This document shows positions 1,935 through 63,504 of a stretch of 64,000 nucleotides of DNA, piece after piece. The notes under the pieces are model-generated. The model saw only the letters and a list, made by a program, of their open reading frames with translations, was not told the origin of the DNA and searched no databases. Source of the DNA: Nitrospira sp. (GTDB lineage: Bacteria; Nitrospirota; Nitrospiria; Nitrospirales; Nitrospiraceae); assembly GCA_016788885.1 (NCBI GenBank), contig JAEURX010000052.1, forward strand, positions 124,001-188,000. The letters are read 5' to 3'. Numbering within the stretch: the stretch's first letter is position 1; each line of letters begins with the position of its first letter. The translations under genes and the position numbers were made by a program.

Positions 1935-4610
1935 TTATGTCCCTGACTGCTGAATCAATTTGGCAACCAGGCCGGTCCAGCCGGTCTGGTGACTGGCGCC
2001 GATTCCGGCCCCGTTGTCGCCATGGAAATATTCGTAGAACTGAACAAGATCACGCCAATGCGGATCCTGTTGGAACTTGTCCGTACCACCGTACACAGGA
2101 CGTCGGCCATCCGTCCCGCGCAGAAACGTATGCGTGAGACGACGGGACAACTCCGCCGCAACATCGGCGAGATGACGGCGCTGCCCGGAACCGGTCGGAT
2201 ACTCGACGGTAAACGAATCGCCGAAATAGTAATGAAACTTCTGGAGCGATTCGATGAGCAGATAATTCACGGGAAACCAGACCGGTCCCCGCCAATTGGA
2301 GTTGCCGCCAAAGAGGCCGGTTGTGGATTCCGCCGGCTGATACTCCACGCTATGCGTCGTGCCCATCATCGACAGGATGTAAGGGTGTTCCTGGTGATAG
2401 CGGGACAAGGCCCTTACCCCATACGGAGACAAAAACTCGCGCTCATCCAGCAAATATCGCAACACCTTCGGCAGTCGCTGGCGATTGACCAACGACAGGA
2501 ACCGGCGCACCTCTCCGTTCTGCGACTGGGTTTCAATGTGAAGGCTAAAATCCGGTCGATTTTCAATGAACCACTGCATGCGATGCTTAAAGCGCGGCAA
2601 CCGGTCGATGAGCTCCGAGTCCAACGTTTCGACCGCAAACAACGGAATCAGGCCGACCATCGAGCGGACCTTCATGGGAAACGTCCTGCCGTCAGGCAGA
2701 TGCAGCACGTCGTAAAAAAATCCGTCTTCCCGGTTCCAGAGTTCGATCTTCGCGTTGCCGATGTTGTTCATAGCCCGGCAGATGTATACGAAATGCTCGA
2801 AGAACTTACTGGCCACATCTTCATAGGCCCGATCATCACGCGCCAACTCCAGGGCGATGGACAGCATGTTCAGACAATACATGCCCATCCAACTCGTGGC
2901 GTCCGATTGTTCGATCTGCCCGCCGGTGGGGAGCGGTTTACTTCGGTCGAACACCCCGATGTTGTCTAATCCCAGGAACCCGCCCTGAAAGATGTTTTTC
3001 CCGTCGGCATCCTTCCGATTGACCCACCACGTGAAATTCAGCAGCAGTTTGTGGAACACCCGCTCCAGAAAGACTCGATCTCCCACCCCTTTCCGTTTCT
3101 TCTCGATCTTGTAGACCCGCCAGGCGGCCCACGCGTGCACGGGAGGATTCACGTCGCCCAAGGCCCACTCATAGGCGGGGATTTGCCCGTTCGGGTGCAT
3201 ATACCATTCACGGAGCATCAAGACGAGCTGGTCCTTGGCGAAGCGGGAATCGACCAGCGCGATCGGCAGACAGTGAAACGCCAGATCCCAGGCGGCATAC
3301 CAGGGATACTCCCATTTGTCCGGCATGGAGATGACATCGGCGTTGTAGAGGTGCGTCCAGTCGGCGTTCCTCCCACGCAGCCGCTCAACGGGTGGTTCAG
3401 GGCCTGCCGGATCCCCCTTCAACCAACGATCGACTTCATAGTGATAAAACTGCTTACTCCACAGGAGGCCGGCAAAGGCTTGCCGCTGAACCAACCTCGC
3501 GTCGTCGGACACATTCGGTGGTGCCAGGGGCGCATAGAACGCATCGGCCTCCCGGAGCCGCGACGTAAAGACCGCATCAAACGCTGCGGGGTCGAGCGCA
3601 CCTTCGGCTGAACCATTCGTGAAGCGCAGTCGGAGGCTCACCGGCTGGCCAGGCTGGGTGGAAAGGACATAGTGCGCCGCGGCTTTGGAGCCGACCTGCT
3701 CCGGATTGACGGCAGCCTGCTCTCCCTGCACGACGTAGTCGTGAAAACTGTCTTTCACATACCGCGCGCCGTCCTCGTCGCCATACAGACGCCGCGTATT
3801 GGTCTCATTTTCGGTGAACAGGAGATCGGGAGCCCCCTCGCACAGCAGTTGCCGCCGGCCGTAGTAGTCGTGATCGAACTCCACCACGCTGACCCCAGGC
3901 ATGGAGTTCCCCTTGCGCATCCGCGGGCGGCGCACATCGAGCCCCCACGACCAGGTGTTCCGAAACCAGATCGTCGGCAACACCGTCAGCGTCGCAGGCA
4001 GCGGGCCCCGGTTGATGACCTGAACCCGCACCAACAAATCCTCCGGTGAGGCCTTCGCATACTCCACGAACACATCGAAGTAGCGGTCACCGTCGAACAC
4101 GCCCGTATCCAGCAGCTCGAACTCCGGATCGCTCCGGGTTCGGCGGCGGTTCTCTTCGACAAGCTGCGTGTAGGGAAACGCGGCCTGCGGGTACTTGTAC
4201 AGAAACTTCATGTAGGAATGCGTGGGGGTCGAGTCGAGGTAGAAATAGTACTCCTTGAGATCCTCTCCGTGGTTCCCTTCGTGGCCGGTGAGACCGAACA
4301 TCCGTTCTTTGAGAATCGGATCGCGCCCGTTCCAAAGCGCCAGTGCAAAACACACGAACTGGTGGCGATCGCAGATCCCCGCCAGGCCGTCCTCGTTCCA
4401 CCGATAGGCTTTCGAGCGGGCGTGATCGTGGGGAAGTGACTCCCAGGCCGTCCCATCGGGGCTATAGTCCTCCCGCACCGTCCCCCAGGCCCGTTCGCTC
4501 AAGTAGGGCCCCCACCGCTTCCAATGCTTGCGGCGCAGATCATCCTCATCAAGGCGCTGCTGCTCCGCCGAGGGATGGCGTGCAGCCTCCCCCCCTGCCG
4601 ATGTCGACAT
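1935..4610 (-). CDS. GH63-like glucosidase (MGH1-type glycoside hydrolase)
   Basis: A protein of 891 aa. I chose the ATG at 4610 (MSTSAGG) because the longer frame would need a TTG at 4652 with no ribosome-binding site, while GGGAG lies about 10 bases before the ATG. The N-terminal half ([19 protein letters not shown]) and the long domain with [14 protein letters not shown] and [17 protein letters not shown] match bacterial glucosidases related to GH63 and mannosylglycerate hydrolase. No signal peptide is visible, so it is cytoplasmic. Known relatives cleave alpha-glucosidic bonds in oligosaccharides or compatible solutes such as glucosyl- or mannosylglycerate. The debranching-enzyme gene starts 14 bp downstream, which suggests one operon. 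The family is secure and the substrate is unknown. Confidence 0.85.
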
Positions 4611-4872
4611 ACGACGCAGACTCCCGTCCCAAGACCGCAATGGGCCCAACAAAGGGAGCCAGCATGCACTCGGCGTCGAAAAGATTCAACTACCGTTCGG
4701 ACCGAGGACTTTCTCCTGCTCGGAAGCAGAACGAACGGGGGTTGGCAGACGAGAACAGACGGGAGACTGGGGAAAGGGGACGACAGATTGTTGTGAATTT
4801 GAGACTAACCGGAACGAGTGAACCGACTGCGCAAAGAGGAGGTCGGCGCGGCTCACCCGGGAGGGAGAGGCC

Positions 4873-5058
4873 TTAACTCCAAATCACGCCTTCTTGGTTC
4901 ATGAGATAGTCGATGACCTCGATGCTATCTCGCAGCTGGAGTTGCGCCTGCTCGGACATGGGTAACACCGCCCCAAGCAGCTTGCCGGATTCCACTTCCG
5001 CGAGGTTGGGAATCCCGTCGGTACTGCGCTTTTCTAGATCGAATCGAAAGCTGGCCAC
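4873..5058 (-). CDS. Small hypothetical protein, 61 aa
   Basis: Starts at a GTG at 5058 that has GGAGGT 5 bases before it, one of the clearest ribosome-binding sites in the area. A frame running further upstream exists, but its extra residues look like untranslated sequence. The protein begins VASFRFDLEKRSTDGIP and ends with an acidic helix-like tail (DSIEVIDYLMNQEGVIWS). It has no signal peptide, membrane segment or cysteine. I recognise no family. It lies downstream of the beta-helix gene on the same strand, 154 bp away. It is judged real from its start signals only. Confidence 0.5.
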   Translation of the reverse strand: MASFRFDLEKRSTDGIPNLAEVESGKLLGAVLPMSEQAQLQLRDSIEVIDYLMNQEGVIWS

Positions 5059-5212
5059 GTCGTACCTCCAATCCCTTGTCGGTCGTAGTACAGCAATTCT
5101 TGAGCCACACCTGGGCCGCGTACTGTCGCTGCTCACCTTGAAGCATAGCACACGGGCTTGCCCGCCCGAGGAGGCCGGCTGACGGCTGAATTTATGCTGT
5201 GTTGATCGAGGT

Positions 5213-6238
5213 TTAGTGGGATTCGGTGAGCGGAGGAAGGGCACCAAGATAGGGGAAGTCACCGATTCGCAGCAGTGAGGTATCCGCTCGCAGTCTGAAA
5301 TCGTCTCGGGCAGTGTCAACGAAGCGTGGATCCACCGTCAAATCAGAATCGGGCTTCAATTCGGGGGCCGGCTGGTTGGGGTTGCCGGAGCGTAAATAGT
5401 TGGAGCCGGAATTCTGCATGGCATTATAGGACAACAACACTCGGCTGGAGCCGCCTACGACGAATCCGTAGGAATTCAAGCTGATGATGTTCCCGGATGC
5501 CTCGTTTTGGGAAGTTCCAAGAAACGCGGCCCCTCCGCCGTTTTTCACAAACGTATTCCCGACCAAGACGGCTCGGGATTGATCATTGACGATCACTGCC
5601 TCGAACAGGCTCCGCGTGATGACATTTCGTTCCAACCGCACGGTGGACTTGCCCGCGACACTGACCCCATGATCATTGTCATGGACGAAATTTCCTCGCA
5701 TGACAGCTTGTGAGTTCGCAAACTGAACCCCCGTGGTTTCGCTGCCCCCGATGTCGCAATCTTCGATCCGCACATCCTCGACCTGCTGCGTGAACAACAT
5801 CCCTTTCACACGCGCATGATGGAAGTGAATGCCGCGACCGTTAAACATGCCCATCGCATGCCCGCCATGTTCATTGACGGTGATGCCGGAAATCTCAATG
5901 TTCGTGGCCCCATAGGGCCACTTGCCGATGTGGAACACTCCTACCCGTTCACGCCCCAGGATCGTGACTTGGTCCATGCCGGCCCCGATCAGCCTCACGT
6001 TTTCTTTGCTGTGAATCGTGACATCTTCGGCGTAGGCGCCGGGTCGGATCAGAATGGTGTCTCCCTTCTTCGCCGCATCAACCGCCTCCTGAATGGACCG
6101 GTACTGCCCGGATCCGTCCAGGGCCACCACCAGAGGCGCACGTTCCGCAGTCGCAGGGTCTTCCGCCTGCGCACCAGCCACTCCAGCAGTCACGACAGCG
6201 AGGCCTAGGAACACACTTCGAATGAGAGCGTACAGCAT
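5213..6238 (-). CDS. Secreted right-handed parallel beta-helix protein
   Basis: A protein of 341 aa. Residues 1-25 form a Sec signal peptide (hydrophobic core FLGLAVVTAGVAG, cleavage after AQA). Mature residues begin with the DUF1565/pectate-lyase-like opening DGSGQYRSIQEAVDAAKKGD and IRPGAYAEDVTIHSKENVRLIG. Short beta-helix coils follow to about residue 300 (GISVTVNEHGG-like turns, VRIEDCDIGG, VRLERNVIT, AVLVGNTFVKNGG). Proteins of this fold bind or cleave polysaccharides, or act as periplasmic scaffolds (NosD-like). I see no clear catalytic residues, so no enzyme activity is claimed. It is divergently transcribed from coaE, with only 84 bp between the two start codons. Confidence 0.75.
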   Translation of the reverse strand: MLYALIRSVFLGLAVVTAGVAGAQAEDPATAERAPLVVALDGSGQYRSIQEAVDAAKKGDTILIRPGAYAEDVTIHSKENVRLIGAGMDQVTILGRERVGVFHIGKWPYGATNIEISGITVNEHGGHAMGMFNGRGIHFHHARVKGMLFTQQVEDVRIEDCDIGGSETTGVQFANSQAVMRGNFVHDNDHGVSVAGKSTVRLERNVITRSLFEAVIVNDQSRAVLVGNTFVKNGGGAAFLGTSQNEASGNIISLNSYGFVVGGSSRVLLSYNAMQNSGSNYLRSGNPNQPAPELKPDSDLTVDPRFVDTARDDFRLRADTSLLRIGDFPYLGALPPLTESH

Positions 6239-6322
6239 ATGGATGGCTATACCGCCGGGACCAGCGAGAAGTCAATCGAGCCTCGTTGCGGGGGCAGCCA
6301 CCCCGTGCTATCTTCACGCCCC

Positions 6323-6925
6323 ATGATTTTGGTAGGCCTGACCGGCGGAGTAGCGACCGGCAAAAGCACGGTCGCACACATGTTTGCGCGTTGCGGAGCA
6401 ATCGTTATCGATGCCGATGCCTTGGCCCATCAGGTCGTCGAGCCGGGCAAACCGGCCTGGCGCGAGATCGTCAGGACGTTCGGCCCCTCTGTGTTGAACC
6501 CGGATCGGACGCTGAACCGGCAAGCGCTGGGCGCGCTGGTCTTCCGGCACCCCACACAACTGCGGCGCCTGGAACGGATCATTCATCCTCGCGTGGCACG
6601 AGAGCAGGCCAGACGAACTCGGGAAGCCGCTCGCCTGAAGCCAAAATCTGTCGTCATCTACGATGTCCCACTCTTGTTCGAAGCGGGAATCGACGCGCGT
6701 GTGGACATAATCGTCGTGGTCACCGCCGATCGCGCCAGCCAGATCGCTCGCCTGAAGCGCCGCAACGGATTCACGCGCGCCGAAGCCATCCGACGTATCC
6801 GCAATCAATTCCCCCTGAGGCGGAAAGCTGCCGCCGCCGACTACCTCCTCGACGGCACCACCCCACGCCCGCGCCTGTTCACCGCCGTGAAGCACCTCTA
6901 TGCTGAACTCCTCGCCCTTGCCTGA
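6323..6925 (+). CDS. coaE: Dephospho-CoA kinase
   Basis: A protein of 200 aa, the usual length for CoaE, which phosphorylates the 3'-hydroxyl of dephospho-CoA in the last step of coenzyme A synthesis. The P-loop GLTGGVATGKST sits at residues 5-16 directly after the ATG at 6323, followed by IDADALAHQVVEPG (the DAD substrate motif) and YDVPLLFEAG near residue 115. A longer in-frame extension to 6239 would run into the divergent beta-helix gene's start and adds no family sequence, so it was rejected. trxB follows 43 bp downstream on the same strand. Confidence 0.95.
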   Translation: MILVGLTGGVATGKSTVAHMFARCGAIVIDADALAHQVVEPGKPAWREIVRTFGPSVLNPDRTLNRQALGALVFRHPTQLRRLERIIHPRVAREQARRTREAARLKPKSVVIYDVPLLFEAGIDARVDIIVVVTADRASQIARLKRRNGFTRAEAIRRIRNQFPLRRKAAAADYLLDGTTPRPRLFTAVKHLYAELLALA

Positions 6926-6968
6926 CCCCAGCTTTTCCCTCGCCGCTTCGGTATGTTAGCATCCGCTC

Positions 6969-7895
6969 ATGCGCAACCTTGTCATCATCGGCTCCGGGCC
7001 GGCTGGTCTCACCGCCGCCATCTATGCGGCGCGTGCCAACCTGTCGCCGCTTCTGATCGAAGGCTGGCAATCCGGAGGACAACTGACCACCACGACCGAA
7101 GTAGAAAACTATCCCGGCTTTTCTAAGGGCATCATGGGACCGGAACTCATGAAGGAGATGCGTGGACAAGCCGAACGGTTCGGGACGGAATTCCTCACCG
7201 GCGACGTCTCGGCGATGAATCTCACCGATCGACCATTCCGGTTGACGATCGATGGAGAGCAGACGGTGGAAACCGCAGCCTTGATTCTGGCCACCGGCGC
7301 CTCGGCCATTCAGCTTGGGCTCCCGAATGAGCAACGCCTGACCGGGCACGGAGTCTCGACCTGCGCCACCTGCGACGGCTACTTTTTCCGCGGGCAGGAC
7401 CTGGTGGTCGTCGGCGGCGGCGATAGCGCGGTGGAAGAGGCCACCTTCCTGACAAAATTCGCGCGCACCGTCACCGTCGTGCACCGCCGAGACAAGCTGC
7501 GGGCCTCCAAAATCATGCAAGACCGCGCCATGAAGAATGAAAAGATTTCATTCGCGTGGAATTCTGTCGTTGAAGACATTCTCGGAAAGGATGTGGTCAC
7601 CGGGGTCCGACTCAAGAATATCGTCACCGGTGCCTCCACAGAACTCACTTGTGCCGGCGTCTTCGTCGCCATCGGCCACCGACCCAATACGGATCTGCTG
7701 AAGGGGCAAGTGGCGATGGATGAGAAGGGCTACGTCCTCACCTCGCAGGGAACCGCCACCAGCGTCGCCGGCCTATTCGCCGCCGGCGACGTCCAGGACT
7801 CGAAATATCGCCAGGCCATTACTGCAGCCGGCTCAGGATGCATGGCCGCCATCGACGCCGAACGGTTTCTGGAATCGGTGCTTCATCAACTCTAG
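6969..7895 (+). CDS. trxB: Thioredoxin reductase
   Basis: A protein of 308 aa. It has an N-terminal FAD-binding Rossmann motif (IIGSGPAGLTAAIYAARA, residues 6-23), the redox-active CATC followed by DGYFF near residue 135, an NADPH-binding GGGDSAVEEA around residue 155, and a C-terminal FAD motif GLFAAGDVQDSKYRQ. This is the standard low-molecular-weight bacterial TrxB that passes electrons from NADPH to thioredoxin in the cytoplasm. It follows coaE with a short gap. No thioredoxin gene lies nearby. Confidence 0.96.
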   Translation: MRNLVIIGSGPAGLTAAIYAARANLSPLLIEGWQSGGQLTTTTEVENYPGFSKGIMGPELMKEMRGQAERFGTEFLTGDVSAMNLTDRPFRLTIDGEQTVETAALILATGASAIQLGLPNEQRLTGHGVSTCATCDGYFFRGQDLVVVGGGDSAVEEATFLTKFARTVTVVHRRDKLRASKIMQDRAMKNEKISFAWNSVVEDILGKDVVTGVRLKNIVTGASTELTCAGVFVAIGHRPNTDLLKGQVAMDEKGYVLTSQGTATSVAGLFAAGDVQDSKYRQAITAAGSGCMAAIDAERFLESVLHQL

Positions 7896-7905
7896 GTCTC
7901 CCACC

Positions 7906-8013
7906 GGATGCTCACAATGGTTGTCCAACGAGGCCGAAGACGAAACAAAACCGGAGGCGTACCCTTGCGGTATGTTGAGGATTTTGGTGAGTCGAGAACG
8001 AAGTTAGCAGCCC
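7906..8013. repeat. Dispersed palindromic repeat, copy 1 (right end lost)
   Basis: Begins GGATGCTCACAATGG and is almost identical to copy 2 over the ~75-bp core, from the GAGGCCG block through GGCGTACCCTTGCGGTA to GAGTCGAGAACGAAGTT. The GTACC...GGTA core can form a hairpin. The last ~15 bp of copy 2 (TTTTCAGCATCC end) is missing here, so this copy has decayed at its right terminus. It lies directly after the trxB stop codon. Confidence 0.7.
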
Positions 8014-59259: not shown

Positions 59260-59262
59260 CTA
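59074..59262. repeat. Dispersed palindromic repeat, interrupted copy 4
   Basis: The left part (CAGGATCGTCAACAGCGTC then GGCAAGGCCGCAGCGA and GTGCGAGGTA) resembles the left half of the ~120-bp family. The right part (GATCGCCGCGAGAACGCCGG and CCTTTCTCAACAGC) resembles the right half. About 70 bp of unrelated or diverged sequence stands between, replacing the GTACC core. The end overlaps the nadA stop codon. Membership is likely but weaker than for the other copies. Confidence 0.4.
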
Positions 59263-60363
59263 GCTCAGCGCCATCATGCGATCGAGCGCCACCTTCGCCC
59301 ACTGCTTTTCGTCCGCAGGCACCGTGATATGGTTCACCACATGGCCGTCGACCAGATTCTCCAGCGCCCAGCAGAGGTGCGGGGCGTCGATCCGGTACAT
59401 CGTGGCGCACTGACAGACTGTGGACGACAGGAAAAACACCTTCTTGTCTGTCTGTTCATGTTTTAGGCGGTTGACCAGGTTCAGTTCTGTTCCGACGGCC
59501 CAGGTGGTTCCTGCCGGAGCAGCCGTGATCGTCCGGATGATGTACTCGGTCGAGCCCACGAGGTCGGCCTTGTTCACCACATCCTCATGGCATTCGGGGT
59601 GCACGATCACCTTCACATCGGGATGCTGCTTGCGGAAATAGTCGATATGGGACGGCTGAAACATCTGGTGCACGCTGCAGTGCCCCTTCCACAGGATCAG
59701 CTTGGCTCGCTGGATCGCCTCCACAGAATTACCGCCCCGCGGCATATACGGATCCCAGACAATCATCTGCTCGCGGGGAATGCCCATCTTATTTGCCGTG
59801 TTCCGGCCCAGGTGTTCATCGGGGAAAAACAGAATCTTCTCGCGGCGCGCCCAGCTCCATTCGATGACTTTCCGTGCGTTCGATGACGTGCAGGTGAGTC
59901 CGCCATGTTCGCCGCAGAAGGCCTTCAAGATCGCCGCGGAGTTCACGTAGACCGCCGGCATCACCGTTTCCTCGACTGGCACGACCCGTCCAAGCGCATC
60001 CCAGCACTGCTCCACCTGTTCGATCGCCGCCATATCGGCCATGGAGCAACCGGCCGCCATGTCCGGAAGAATAACCGTTTGATTGGAACGGCTCAGCACG
60101 TCAGCCGTTTCCGCCATGAAATGCACGCCGCAAAACACCACATAGGGTCGGTCTGATCGCTGCTCGGCGACCTGCGCCAGGATCAGGGAGTCGCCTCGAA
60201 AATCCGCATGTTGAATCACTTCATCGCGCTGATAATTATGGCCGAGAATCATCACCCGGTCGCCGAGCGACCGTTTGGCCGCACGGGTCCGTTCGAAGAG
60301 TTCTTCGGCAGAGAGAGCCTGATAATCGGTAATGGGACGGGGAAGCGTGGCGACCGTTTTCAC
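59260..60363 (-). CDS. nadA: Quinolinate synthase
   Basis: A protein of 367 aa with a GTG start at 60363. It has GHNYQRDEVIQHADFRGDSL, VVFCGVHFMAETADVLS (Fe-S cysteine), PDMAAGCSMADMAAIEQVEQ, TCTSSNARKV and HPECHEDVV, with the last Fe-S ligand probably in YRIDAPHLCWALENLV. It condenses iminoaspartate with dihydroxyacetone phosphate to quinolinate, using a [4Fe-4S] cluster, in NAD synthesis. nadD is in the window, nadB and nadC are not. Confidence 0.95.
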   Translation of the reverse strand: MKTVATLPRPITDYQALSAEELFERTRAAKRSLGDRVMILGHNYQRDEVIQHADFRGDSLILAQVAEQRSDRPYVVFCGVHFMAETADVLSRSNQTVILPDMAAGCSMADMAAIEQVEQCWDALGRVVPVEETVMPAVYVNSAAILKAFCGEHGGLTCTSSNARKVIEWSWARREKILFFPDEHLGRNTANKMGIPREQMIVWDPYMPRGGNSVEAIQRAKLILWKGHCSVHQMFQPSHIDYFRKQHPDVKVIVHPECHEDVVNKADLVGSTEYIIRTITAAPAGTTWAVGTELNLVNRLKHEQTDKKVFFLSSTVCQCATMYRIDAPHLCWALENLVDGHVVNHITVPADEKQWAKVALDRMMALS

Positions 60364-60389
60364 CTGCAGCCTTTCGGTTGGTTGAAAAA

Positions 60390-60419
60390 ACTATACCACG
60401 AGGGAGCTTACACTGTCTG
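60390..60419 (-). promoter_or_regulatory. Probable promoter of nadA
   Basis: On the minus strand, -35 CAGACA (60419-60414) and -10 TATAGT (60395-60390) are 18 bp apart, the -10 box ending 26 bp before the nadA start codon. Matches are moderate: four of six at -35 and five of six at -10. Confidence 0.45.
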
Positions 60420-60521
60420 ATTCTACGACACCCCTTCGCGGCTACGCAACGACATGAGTCGGCACAGACGGCCCAGGAAGAGTGCGGGGATGGGTCGAAT
60501 GGACGGAAGAGGCTCTCTTCC

Positions 60522-60818
60522 TTAGCGAAGCTTCCAATATCCTGGCCGGCGGCGGCCATGCGCAAGGGCCACCACCTGAACGGAGTCATTCACGATCCGG
60601 TAGACCAACTGGAAGGGAAACCGATGAAAGAGATAACGACGAGTTCCATGCACGAATAGCGGGCAACGTTCAGGAGCGAGCGAGATTGCTTCAACCCCTC
60701 CATCAAGCTCAGCCAGAAACAATTCAGCAGCAGACTGACTTCTTGCCGCATACCATTCCCGCGCCGCCCAAGCTTCCTCAATAGCGGCGGGATGAAACAC
60801 AACCGATAACTTCGGCAT
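60522..60818 (-). CDS. Type II toxin of the RelE/ParE superfamily
   Basis: A protein of 98 aa. The fold signature is clear: VVFHPAAIEEAWAAREWYAARSQSAAELFLAELDGGVEAI, then P-x-x-CPLFVHGTRRYLFHRFPFQLVYRIVNDSVQVVALAHGRRRPGYW. The central RR(Y)LFHRFPF...YR segment is typical of ParE-like toxins. The start overlaps the antitoxin stop in TGATG, so the toxin is made after the antitoxin. The target (ribosome-bound mRNA or gyrase) cannot be told from sequence. Confidence 0.88.
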   Translation of the reverse strand: MPKLSVVFHPAAIEEAWAAREWYAARSQSAAELFLAELDGGVEAISLAPERCPLFVHGTRRYLFHRFPFQLVYRIVNDSVQVVALAHGRRRPGYWKLR

Positions 60819-61042
60819 CAGAGCCCGAATATCTTTCGGCGGGCATCGATCCAGGAAACGAGACGGGGGTGAGGTGAATCTAGGTCATTGAGGCGGCGAG
60901 CAATTTCCTGCTCCCAGTCTGTTTCGGCGTCAGCATCAACAGCCGTGTCTAGGCTGTCCAACAAGGAACCAGCCATTGCCGCACGAACCTCTGGCGGAAG
61001 CTTAAGTGCCGCTTCTAATAATTTCGTCGCTTCAGAACCCAT
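60818..61042 (-). CDS. Antitoxin of the addiction-module component family
   Basis: A protein of 74 aa. LLEAALKLPPEVRAAMAGSLLDSLD and DWEQEIARRLNDLDS are typical of the putative addiction-module component (TIGR02574 family) that pairs with RelE/ParE toxins. It is acidic and mostly helical. It precedes the toxin in the same operon, the usual order, with a 1-bp overlap. Confidence 0.85.
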   Translation of the reverse strand: MGSEATKLLEAALKLPPEVRAAMAGSLLDSLDTAVDADAETDWEQEIARRLNDLDSPHPRLVSWIDARRKIFGL

Positions 61043-61442
61043 ACCCGAATTCTAGCAGAAGCAGTGGAAGCAGGAAAGTCTGTCTTCTGCACCGGCTATT
61101 GGGCCCAAACCACAAACATCATCAGCTCGTATGGCACAAGGCCGCCATGAGGGGAAAGTGATAGAGCCTGACAGACGATTGATCCGCCATGGACACCTGC
61201 ATGAGCACCTAACTAAGCCTTGTCCACTCGAAGCCTGTCAACTCGCCAGCATCCCGGCTCAAACAGGATAGGCTTCGCCGTTTCCTACGGAGTTCAACGG
61301 CCGCAGGCTTCAGTAAGTCAGGTACCCACTCATGCAGTCAATGATGTGTCGTTGACTGATATTGAGGTCCGCGGCATACTGCGCCGTCACGCAAGGATCA
61401 ATAGAGGCAATCAGGTATAGCAAAGAAACCTATGGGGTAATA
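61043..61442. other. 400-bp intergenic region with palindrome, upstream of the DUF262-HNH gene
   Basis: It holds no complete gene. CAGTCAA and TTGACTG (61335-61358) form a 24-bp inverted repeat with a 10-bp spacer, which could be an operator for the DUF262-HNH gene 85 bp downstream. On the minus strand at about 61315-61420 a short frame (DPCVTAQYAADLNISQRHIIDCMSGY) resembles an HTH fragment and may be a gene remnant; it has no start signal. Parts near 61257-61310 look like decayed sequence. Confidence 0.4.
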
Positions 61443-62747
61443 ATGCGCGAGCATTCTCTTGATTTTGACTACGGCGCCAAAACAATCCAAGACTTTGTTT
61501 TCCTATACCAGAACAATAAGTTGAACCTTGAACCTGGATTTCAGCGGGATTCCGTGTGGACGCTATCGGACCGAAAGAAGCTGATTGATTCCTTGCTTCA
61601 GAACTACCCGATTCCTTCTGTGTTTCTCTATAAGCAGAGCGAGAACGGCAAACTCCGTTATGATGTAATCGATGGGAAGCAACGGCTCGAAACAGTTCTC
61701 ATGTTTCAAGGAGCCGGACATTTTCGTGGTCATCGATTTGCCGCAAAACTCAAAATTGGCTCAGATGAAACTGTTGAAGAGTGGGATTGGCAGAAATTGC
61801 AAAAGCGTGGGCATGAGCACCGGCTCATGGGCTACAAGTTTCAGACTGTTGAGATTACCGGCGATCTCGCCGACATCATAAATCTATTTGTCCGCATCAA
61901 CTCGACGGGAAAGCGACTCACTGGAGCAGAGAAGCGGCATGCCAGATTTTACAAAAGCGACTTTCTTAAGCAGGCGGCGCGCCTTGCCGAGAGAAAGCAT
62001 GACTTTTTCTTAGGAAATCGAATTCTCTCCGCAGGGCAAATCAGCAGAATGAAGCATGTGGAGTTAGTTTGCGAACTGATGGCATCCAGTCATGCAAAAG
62101 GACTGATCAATAAGAAGAAGGCTCTTGACGGCATCATAGGCGGGCAAGCCGTCGACCACCGGTCACTACGGAGAACGGTTCAAGAGACAATCCGAATACT
62201 GAATCTCACGAAGAAGATGTTCCCAGAAATCAGATCTACCCGATTCTCGAACTCCGTAGACTTTTATTCTCTGTTCATGCTTTTGTGGGAAATGGATCAG
62301 GACAACTGTATCTTGATTGAAAGCAAGCGGAATAGACAAGCCCAGAAACTTCTCGTTTGGCTATCAAATGGAGTGGGGTTAGTAAGACAGCGACAACGTA
62401 AGGCGGAAGGGGGTGCCCCTGAGCAGAGACTCTTTGCAGACTACCTTTTGACAGTTCAAGGCGATACGGATAGCCTCGCAACAAGGCAGCGACGATCTGA
62501 AATTCTCAAAAAAGTCTTTGGTGGCCTTTTCCAGAAGAAAGATGATCAACGTGGCTTCACAATTGAGCAACGTAGGCTACTGTGGCACTCGGAGGAACGC
62601 AGGCGATGTCCGAAGTGCAAAGTGCCACTCAATTGGAATAATTTTACTATTGACCACATTAAGCCTCATGCGCTGGGTGGAAAATCGCATTTATCAAACG
62701 CCGCGCTGATGTGTCGGGAATGCAATTCGAGGAAGGGGAAAAACTGA
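61443..62747 (+). CDS. DUF262-HNH nuclease, probable GmrSD-like defence protein
   Basis: A protein of 434 aa from the ATG at 61443. The N-terminal DUF262 domain has PGFQRDSVW (31-39), IDGKQRLETVL (76-86; the DGQQR-type motif tied to NTP hydrolysis) and FVRINSTGKRLTGAEKRHARF. The C-terminal 45 residues are a full HNH nuclease: CPKC, IDHIKPHALGGKSHLSN, CRECNSRKG. GmrSD enzymes, which cut DNA with modified cytosines, pair DUF262 with DUF1524; here a classic HNH replaces DUF1524. The gene is visibly richer in A/T than its surroundings, which points to transfer. It lies beside a toxin-antitoxin pair. Confidence 0.82.
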   Translation: MREHSLDFDYGAKTIQDFVFLYQNNKLNLEPGFQRDSVWTLSDRKKLIDSLLQNYPIPSVFLYKQSENGKLRYDVIDGKQRLETVLMFQGAGHFRGHRFAAKLKIGSDETVEEWDWQKLQKRGHEHRLMGYKFQTVEITGDLADIINLFVRINSTGKRLTGAEKRHARFYKSDFLKQAARLAERKHDFFLGNRILSAGQISRMKHVELVCELMASSHAKGLINKKKALDGIIGGQAVDHRSLRRTVQETIRILNLTKKMFPEIRSTRFSNSVDFYSLFMLLWEMDQDNCILIESKRNRQAQKLLVWLSNGVGLVRQRQRKAEGGAPEQRLFADYLLTVQGDTDSLATRQRRSEILKKVFGGLFQKKDDQRGFTIEQRRLLWHSEERRRCPKCKVPLNWNNFTIDHIKPHALGGKSHLSNAALMCRECNSRKGKN

Positions 62748-62907
62748 AACCTCAGATTTCATTATCTTGAAGCGCTCCAAACCTTCTCTTCATCGCTTAG
62801 GTCGGATCCGAGAGAACACCTGTAGTGAATAGTCGAGGGGTCGTAGACTGACACCTTATGCGATCGAGCGAATGGTCCTAGCCGTTCCCAAAGATCATTC
62901 TCCCAAA

Positions 62908-63504
62908 CTACTGCGGCAGCGGAATCGTGAGCAGAATCCCGCCCATCACATCCTGCGACTTGAAATCCTTCTTCGGGCTATTGGGATGAGCATTGTGGCA
63001 GCCGATGCAAGATTGGGATGCGGCTTTGTCTGCATAGAGAGCTTGAAAAACAGGGGACCCGCCCTCGGTGGTCACAGCCGTGTAGGGCTGATCGGGATTC
63101 ACGAGAATTTCCGTCAGGCCGGCTCGTTCGAAGTCGGTCATCGGTCGGTTCTTGGCATTGATCGCCCAATTGCTGATCAACCGGTATTGCAACCCGCTTC
63201 GTCCCGCCGCCACGAGCCGCCCGGTTTCCAATAAATATTGGGCCGGAAGAGGAAGCCGGGACGTCTCTCGCCAGTTTTCAGCGGCAAAGGCAATCCCGCG
63301 CATCTGCATCCGCTCAACGACATCGGTCGTGTAAAACGTGCGATCCGCCTGGATGACGCTATGCAGATACTCGGCCACCGCGCCGGCGGGGATACAGGTG
63401 GATGGATTATCATCCCTGCCCGCGGCGGCAGGCCCCCATTGTCCGAGCATCCCCATCGCCCCCGCGCCCAGAACTAGTCCCAGCCAAAAACCTTTCCCGT
63501 TCAT
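62908..63504 (-). CDS. Exported DUF3365 (Tll0287-like) heme-domain protein, paralogue 2
   Basis: A protein of 198 aa from the ATG at 63504 (GGAGG upstream; the frame is open much further but without family sequence). It has a signal peptide (FWLGLVLGAGAMGMLGQWGPAAA). The DUF3365 body has MRGIAFAAENWRETSRLP, ILVNPDQPYTAVTTEGGSPVFQALYADKAAS and CIGCHNAHPNSPKKDFKSQDVMGGI. CIGCH is the c-type heme motif. It is a probable periplasmic redox or gas-binding protein. It is smaller than paralogue 1 (258 aa). Confidence 0.85.
   Translation of the reverse strand: MNGKGFWLGLVLGAGAMGMLGQWGPAAAGRDDNPSTCIPAGAVAEYLHSVIQADRTFYTTDVVERMQMRGIAFAAENWRETSRLPLPAQYLLETGRLVAAGRSGLQYRLISNWAINAKNRPMTDFERAGLTEILVNPDQPYTAVTTEGGSPVFQALYADKAASQSCIGCHNAHPNSPKKDFKSQDVMGGILLTIPLPQ

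Follow-up and report, generated by a model that had tools for sequence, protein, structure and literature searches.

The locus raises the question of whether Nitrospira sp. has recently acquired a single gene whose product defends the cell by cutting foreign DNA. The gene, in which a DUF262 domain is joined to an HNH nuclease, lies in the window, that is, the whole stretch of 64,000 nucleotides that was analysed. A first-pass annotation, made from the sequence, had proposed a nucleotide-controlled, DNA-cutting defence protein, and this is still the best reading of the predicted function, backed by the BrxU/SspE fold, transfer across phyla, insertion in a hotspot and homologues located in type I and type III restriction-modification (R-M), BREX and DISARM-like operons. 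We consider it probable that the gene encodes a horizontally acquired, single-gene, NTP-gated restriction nuclease of the GmrSD/BrxU-like kind, directed against modified foreign DNA.

The Gene and Its Protein

The coordinates first assigned to the gene are correct, and enclose an intact open reading frame of 434 aa with an ATG start (Table 1). The domain search agrees with the proposed junction of DUF262 and a C-terminal HNH zinc nuclease in place of DUF1524: GmrSD_N/DUF262 (PF03235) matches aa 22–169 (E=1.4e-23, 84.5 bits against a cutoff of 33.2), HNH_5 (PF14279, 3e-11) and HNH (PF01844, 7.8e-10) both match aa 389–434, where the nuclease is of the CxxC/CxxC type, and DUF1524 (PF07510) has no Pfam match in the protein at E<=1. 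As for upstream signals, no RNA element was matched in Rfam, and the promoter search gave none above chance, its single weak match scoring lower than the mean of the shuffled sequences.

Table 1. Features of the locus, with positions counted from the first nucleotide of the window.
Feature	Position	Strand	Basis or remark
ParE toxin (60522–60818) and antitoxin (60818–61042)	60522..61042	-	Neighbour, outside the system
Palindrome at the left insertion junction	61335..61358	.	Left arm is ancestral chromosome
Acquired segment, approximate extent	61343..62906	+	From left homology end to Tll0287 stop (blastn)
DUF262–HNH protein gene	61443..62747	+	434 aa plus stop; full-length homologues
DUF262/GmrSD_N domain (ParB/Srx fold), aa 22–169	61506..61949	+	Pfam 1.4e-23; SspE Z 8.9, ParB Z ~7.8, sulfiredoxin Z 6.7
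GFQR motif, aa 32–35	61536..61547	+	F33, Q34, R35 invariant 49/49
DGKQR motif, aa 77–81 (DGQQR-type nucleotide pocket)	61671..61685	+	Invariant 49/49
FVRINSTG motif, aa 149–156	61887..61910	+	F149, N153, G156 invariant 49/49
Helical linker, aa 170–372	61950..62558	+	AlphaFold2 helices 173–359; BrxU alignment reaches aa 361
HNH nuclease domain, aa 389–434	62607..62744	+	Pfam; 33% identity to 4h9d HNH; conservation
HNH residues: zinc-type C389/C392 and C424/C427; catalytic-type D404, H405, N419, N428	62607..62744	+	

The DGKQR-type motif is intact, as had been noticed, and reads DGKQR, not DGQQR. The third position of the canonical DGQQR is changed from Q to K in 49/49 family members, with D, G, Q and R kept, a count biased by one of the two scan patterns, which itself contained DGKQ; the same four letters are present in 11/11 proteins found with the independent scan motif GQISRMKH. 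Identity throughout the 49 aligned proteins extends to F33, Q34, R35, D77, G78, K79, Q80 and R81 and also to N153, G156, E163, C389, D404, H405 and N419, while C392 and N428 are kept in 48/49, and at positions C424 and C427 the alignment has either Cys or His, as zinc ligands would require. The gene is under purifying selection; dN is ~0.15 with respect to the nearest homologues and dS is saturated, hence no dN/dS value is given.

The AlphaFold2 model, built on a 51-sequence alignment, has a mean pLDDT of 87.8 and a pTM of 0.71. When it is compared with the PDB by Foldseek, BrxU entries are the best matches (E 1.9e-5, prob 1.00) and ParB-N and SspE come next; BrxU and SspE are distant, at 13-19% identity. 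By VIA-align, in which Z values under 8 are weak taken alone and here agree with the sequence families, SspE reaches Z 8.9 (145 residues) and BrxU, whose alignment takes in the linker, Z 8.4 (290 residues; rmsd 13, the domains being shifted); the N-terminal part resembles ParB (Z ~7.8) and sulfiredoxin (Z 6.7), and aa 367–434 resemble the HNH of Cas9 (7.5), the Geobacter HNH 4h9d (7.3) and EcoKMcrA (6.5).

Insertion Site and Copies Within the Genus

The composition of the gene is unlike that of its surroundings, as the first-pass annotation had stated, with 47.4% GC against a window mean of 59.3% (z -4.65, 1305-base windows) and a GC3 of 0.52 against 0.74 in nadA and ileS. The flanking genes are nadA (59260–60363, - strand) and the gene of a Tll0287-like protein (62908–63504, - strand), and blastn homology ends at 61343 in two relatives (G005 and G010) and at 62906–62918 in relatives on the other side. 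The two flanks were located close together in nine same-genus relatives, where the distance between them, 2.5 kb here, ranges from 356 bp (G027) to ~7.8 kb (G003). Because both its size and its contents differ among relatives, the site is a variable hotspot without a fixed core position, and the presence/absence comparison that had been suggested as a check thus speaks against a fixed core-genome gene (gap 0.36–7.8 kb).

The mixed contents of this hotspot across the genus (window 60364–62907; L025–L036) include, judged by eye from ORF translations, patatin-like, metalloprotease-like, ATPase-like, HNH and HicA-like proteins, transposases and the ParE pair. In G007 it holds a 666-aa ATPase-like protein (L026:2453–4450, - strand) and a 193-aa protein (1747–2328, - strand), neither of which has a Pfam match and the larger of which has no PADLOC match; the two are a candidate defence pair. 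In G010 (contig C20, L035) the region from nadA to ParE occurs twice in tandem at a contig end, through duplication or as an assembly artefact.

The adjoining toxin–antitoxin pair, earlier taken as a clue, is real (Pfam: ParE toxin and Unstab_antitox), but the clue fails: since G005 and G010 have nadA and the ParE gene at this site and lack the DUF262 gene, the pair is part of the older flank, and it was dropped as a component of the system. The upstream palindrome also exists, with 10-nt arms that are 90% complementary, and is no part of the system either. Its left arm, CAGTCAATG, is common to G005 and G010, its right arm is not, and homology to both genomes stops inside it, at 61343. Because the left arm is conserved and the relatives' homology ends there, the palindrome spans the insertion junction and is no proven operator; an operator role was set aside as unsupported.

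Among 29 genomes of the genus, its own included, the gene is intact in one, broken in two (one copy split by an insertion sequence, one truncated) and absent from 26. In the truncated copy (G009), the left flank and the 3' end of the gene are the same as in the window, a deletion having taken aa 1–368; in the remaining 66 codons there are 10 synonymous differences and one non-synonymous difference. What is left there is a 77-aa ORF (L029:2991–3224), with the HNH domain only and 98% identical to the window protein, which lies next to a second copy of the 3' end of the Tll0287 gene. The other broken copy, in G021, is a 79% homologue at another site, in which an IS5-family transposase separates the first ~30 codons from the rest; the IS5-family element (L021:9877–10700) ends in inverted repeats, and the duplicated target is short (CTA or CTAG).

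A Compact Family Transferred Between Phyla

A search of 395 genomes of the phylum gave three more full-length homologues, with 69, 64 and 49% identity. When 84,980 species genomes were scanned with a profile, ~50 loci came up, 48 of them full-length DUF262–HNH genes at 34–81% identity. The contig scan found nothing with a single sequence and 98 relatives with an alignment as the query. The hosts belong to Lentisphaerota, Planctomycetota, Verrucomicrobiota, Acidobacteriota, Bacteroidota, Pseudomonadota, Actinomycetota and other phyla, and the tree of the homologues departs from host taxonomy: phylum labels need 28 changes on it, where the minimum is 13, and the window protein falls, together with Lentisphaerota, Planctomycetota and G021, in a group of five that has full support. 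Furthermore, in 44/48 loci the gene has a lower GC content than the sequence on either side (mean -7.0 points, p 5e-10), against an average of +0.7 GC points for 228 other long ORFs of the same loci. Both the tree and the composition point to frequent horizontal transfer, between phyla. In the plasmid and phage collections no vehicle for the compact family was found, the DUF262 proteins there being distant ones only: plasmid matches that cover 80% of the protein are only 23-29% identical, and no phage record covers as much. Among viral contigs there is a single distant relative of full-length type (L157:7890–9086), with VIDGKQR and a zinc-type HNH.

Homologues in Defence Operons

In at least 12 homologous loci the gene lies, on the same strand, inside or next to a modification-based defence operon, which is of type I R-M in 8 loci, type III in 1, BREX in 2 and DISARM-like in 1. 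Of 147 ORFs no further than two ORFs from the gene, 8 are type I specificity subunits (Methylase_S), and none is listed for the 148 ORFs at a distance of at least four (Fisher p 0.003). Clustering of the neighbours recovers hsdS in 8 loci, hsdM-type genes in 6 and hsdR-type genes in 5, with no partner gene conserved beside the DUF262–HNH gene. In three loci (L102, L097 and L112) hsdS ends 8–13 bp ahead of the estimated gene start. The type III locus (L119) reads mod, DUF262–HNH gene, res, with almost no spacing. The two BREX loci are arranged as pglX, a 190-aa ORF, DUF262–HNH gene, pglZ, brxL (L092) and as pglZ, brxD, DUF262–HNH gene, brxHI (L117), and in the DISARM-like locus (L094) a DrmD/DpdE-like helicase and a DrmMI-like methylase lie upstream and another HNH protein downstream. 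A defence-island or R-M location was thus found for 12 homologous loci and not for the window copy, which, like its nearest kin and many other relatives, is solitary and has no methylase nearby.

Such embedding has precedents, as GmrSD was previously noted in type I loci (PMC4619093), the DUF262 proteins TgvAB and RloF belong to type I R-M clusters (PMC11411939), and BrxU is found in BREX, which it complements (PMC8565348).

Two loci have further neighbours: in L089 an AAA ATPase of 878 aa, possibly RloC-like, stands between hsdS and the DUF262–HNH gene (5313–7949), and in L121 the gene lies immediately 3' of a PDC-M62A/B candidate defence pair (4567–7618, PADLOC models).

Comparison With Named Systems

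BrxU, a type IV restriction enzyme of the GmrSD family (PDB 7p9k/7p9m), has the same order of DUF262, linker and His-Me nuclease in one chain, and a BREX location as in L092. It differs in its C-terminal DUF1524 (DHIYP) in place of the zinc-type HNH, in its size and motif (~580 aa and DGQQR against 434 aa and DGKQR) and in sequence (~15% identity); the window copy has no BREX genes among its neighbours, the relatives in BREX being L092 and L117. SspE (6jiv, 7drs) shares the DUF262 fold and is an NTP-regulated nuclease, but it is a DUF1524 nickase relying on phosphorothioation by sspABCD, and these genes are absent beside the window gene, whose neighbours are nadA, the ParE toxin–antitoxin pair and the Tll0287-like protein gene. 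TgvAB/RloF (PMC11411939) resembles eight of the relatives in placing a DUF262 protein inside a type I R-M operon, and differs in that TgvAB consists of two genes with DUF1524, where the window copy is solitary. The PADLOC models NsnA, PD-T4-2_A and HEC-05 match the DUF262 region (9e-26, 1.7e-19 and 2e-10); these matches are N-terminal, and the known partner genes are absent at the window locus. No Dazbog, Menshen or PD-T4-2 partner occurs there and none is conserved among the homologues, and for NsnA no published description was found. To Septu PtuB there is HNH-level similarity only (E 0.003 at best), with no PtuA ATPase as a neighbour here.

Also close are the single-gene GmrSD systems of Enterobacteria, in which ParB_n is joined to HNH or DUF1524 and which a 2025 survey classed as type IV restriction, with anti-phage activity reported for five further systems (PMC12373910). 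The one-gene ParB_n and HNH pairing is the same, as far as the description goes; the surveyed systems are enterobacterial, whereas the compact family is mostly from environmental phyla. Judged by its predicted domains, the window protein falls outside GmrSD as strictly defined by DUF262 and DUF1524, and inside the broader HNH-or-DUF1524 definition of that survey. Since the single-gene pairing was described there, the DUF262–HNH architecture is not new. To this the present analysis adds a compact family that crosses phyla, keeps DGKQR fixed and occupies a broader range of host operons than we found stated in the literature.

Proposed Mechanism and Alternative Explanations

The analysis shows that the domains are intact and their active-site residues conserved, that the gene is under purifying selection and mobile, that the fold matches and that relatives lie in modification-based defence operons; NTPase activity, DNA cleavage, dependence on modification and protection from phages are predicted properties. 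DUF262 has a ParB/sulfiredoxin fold and a DGKQR pocket, in which NTP would be bound and hydrolysed. By analogy with BrxU (PMC8565348), the likeliest cycle would begin with NTP binding in this pocket, controlling assembly, and go on to recognition of the modified foreign DNA, NTP hydrolysis and cutting by the HNH; the cited mechanistic work concerns DUF1524-type nucleases, and DGKQR here replaces the canonical DGQQR. The same domain would sense foreign DNA, probably base-modified, the helical linker would relay the signal so that the C-terminal zinc-type HNH is switched on, and DNA cutting by the HNH would block the phage. The preference for modified DNA is suggested by the repeated pairing with modification-based systems, where such a nuclease would catch phages escaping by modification. 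It also fits the host, whose genome gives no match to the C5-methyltransferase family (PF00145), so that a nuclease dependent on cytosine modification would be tolerated; PF01555 has no match in the host genome either.

More tentatively, the members with fixed DGKQR and ~430 aa may be a compact DUF262–HNH family in its own right, one that works as a portable second layer, roaming type I and type III R-M, BREX and DISARM operons and cutting DNA whose modification, possibly unhandled by GmrSD/BrxU, escapes the host system. The family pairs a DUF262 sensor with an ordinary zinc-type HNH across many environmental phyla, and it is repeatedly inserted in modification-based defence operons, an arrangement that also lets BrxU complement BREX. 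Should the family prove modification-dependent, it would offer a small enzyme with which to study the sensing of modified DNA by DUF262, and also a candidate tool enzyme.

Among the alternatives, an effector of the SspE/DndI-like kind, which needs a modification made by the host itself (phosphorothioate, or 6mA from a resident methylase), is rather unlikely. It would agree with SspE being the best structural match by Z (8.9), with the many relatives whose operons include their own methylase, and with a host that has one type I R-M methylase, away from the gene, as well as a DndB/DGQHR-like gene that has a D12-type methylase-like ORF close by. However, no ssp or dnd cluster lies beside the gene, no dndCDE is recognisable by eye near the DndB-like gene, and the nearby methylases vary between relatives, many of which have none.

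We also find it improbable that the protein is an abortive-type nuclease, triggered by phage and released by NTP to cut host and phage DNA alike whatever their modification. Gating by DUF262 and a small HNH domain would suit such an enzyme, and GmrSD-CT596 and GmrSD-ECOR17 are reported to be extremely toxic on expression (PMC12373910), but no partner or trigger gene is conserved alongside, and the repeated pairing with modification-based systems better fits complementary DNA restriction.

Little weight is given to the idea that the gene is a relic or unexpressed cargo in this host and functional in relatives only, since the window copy retains its full length and all of its motifs, although the other two copies of the genus are broken (by IS5-family insertion in G021, by truncation in G009) and no promoter was found above chance. 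As HNH domains are known in homing and mobile elements too, a selfish or regulatory DUF262 protein without a defence role (a homing-type nuclease or a plasmid or phage factor) was considered and is very improbable, given no intron, intein or constant insertion site, relatives in unrelated places and in defence operons, and the distant plasmid and phage matches described above.

Two host loci have features of their own. The type I R-M locus (L170:900–8657; G000, contig C6) has extra genes, seemingly HipA-like, between hsdS and hsdR, and a low-GC (45–48%) patch (L169:5957–9301; G000, contig C53) comprises the DndB/DGQHR-like gene, an uncharacterised protein and the D12-type methylase-like ORF.
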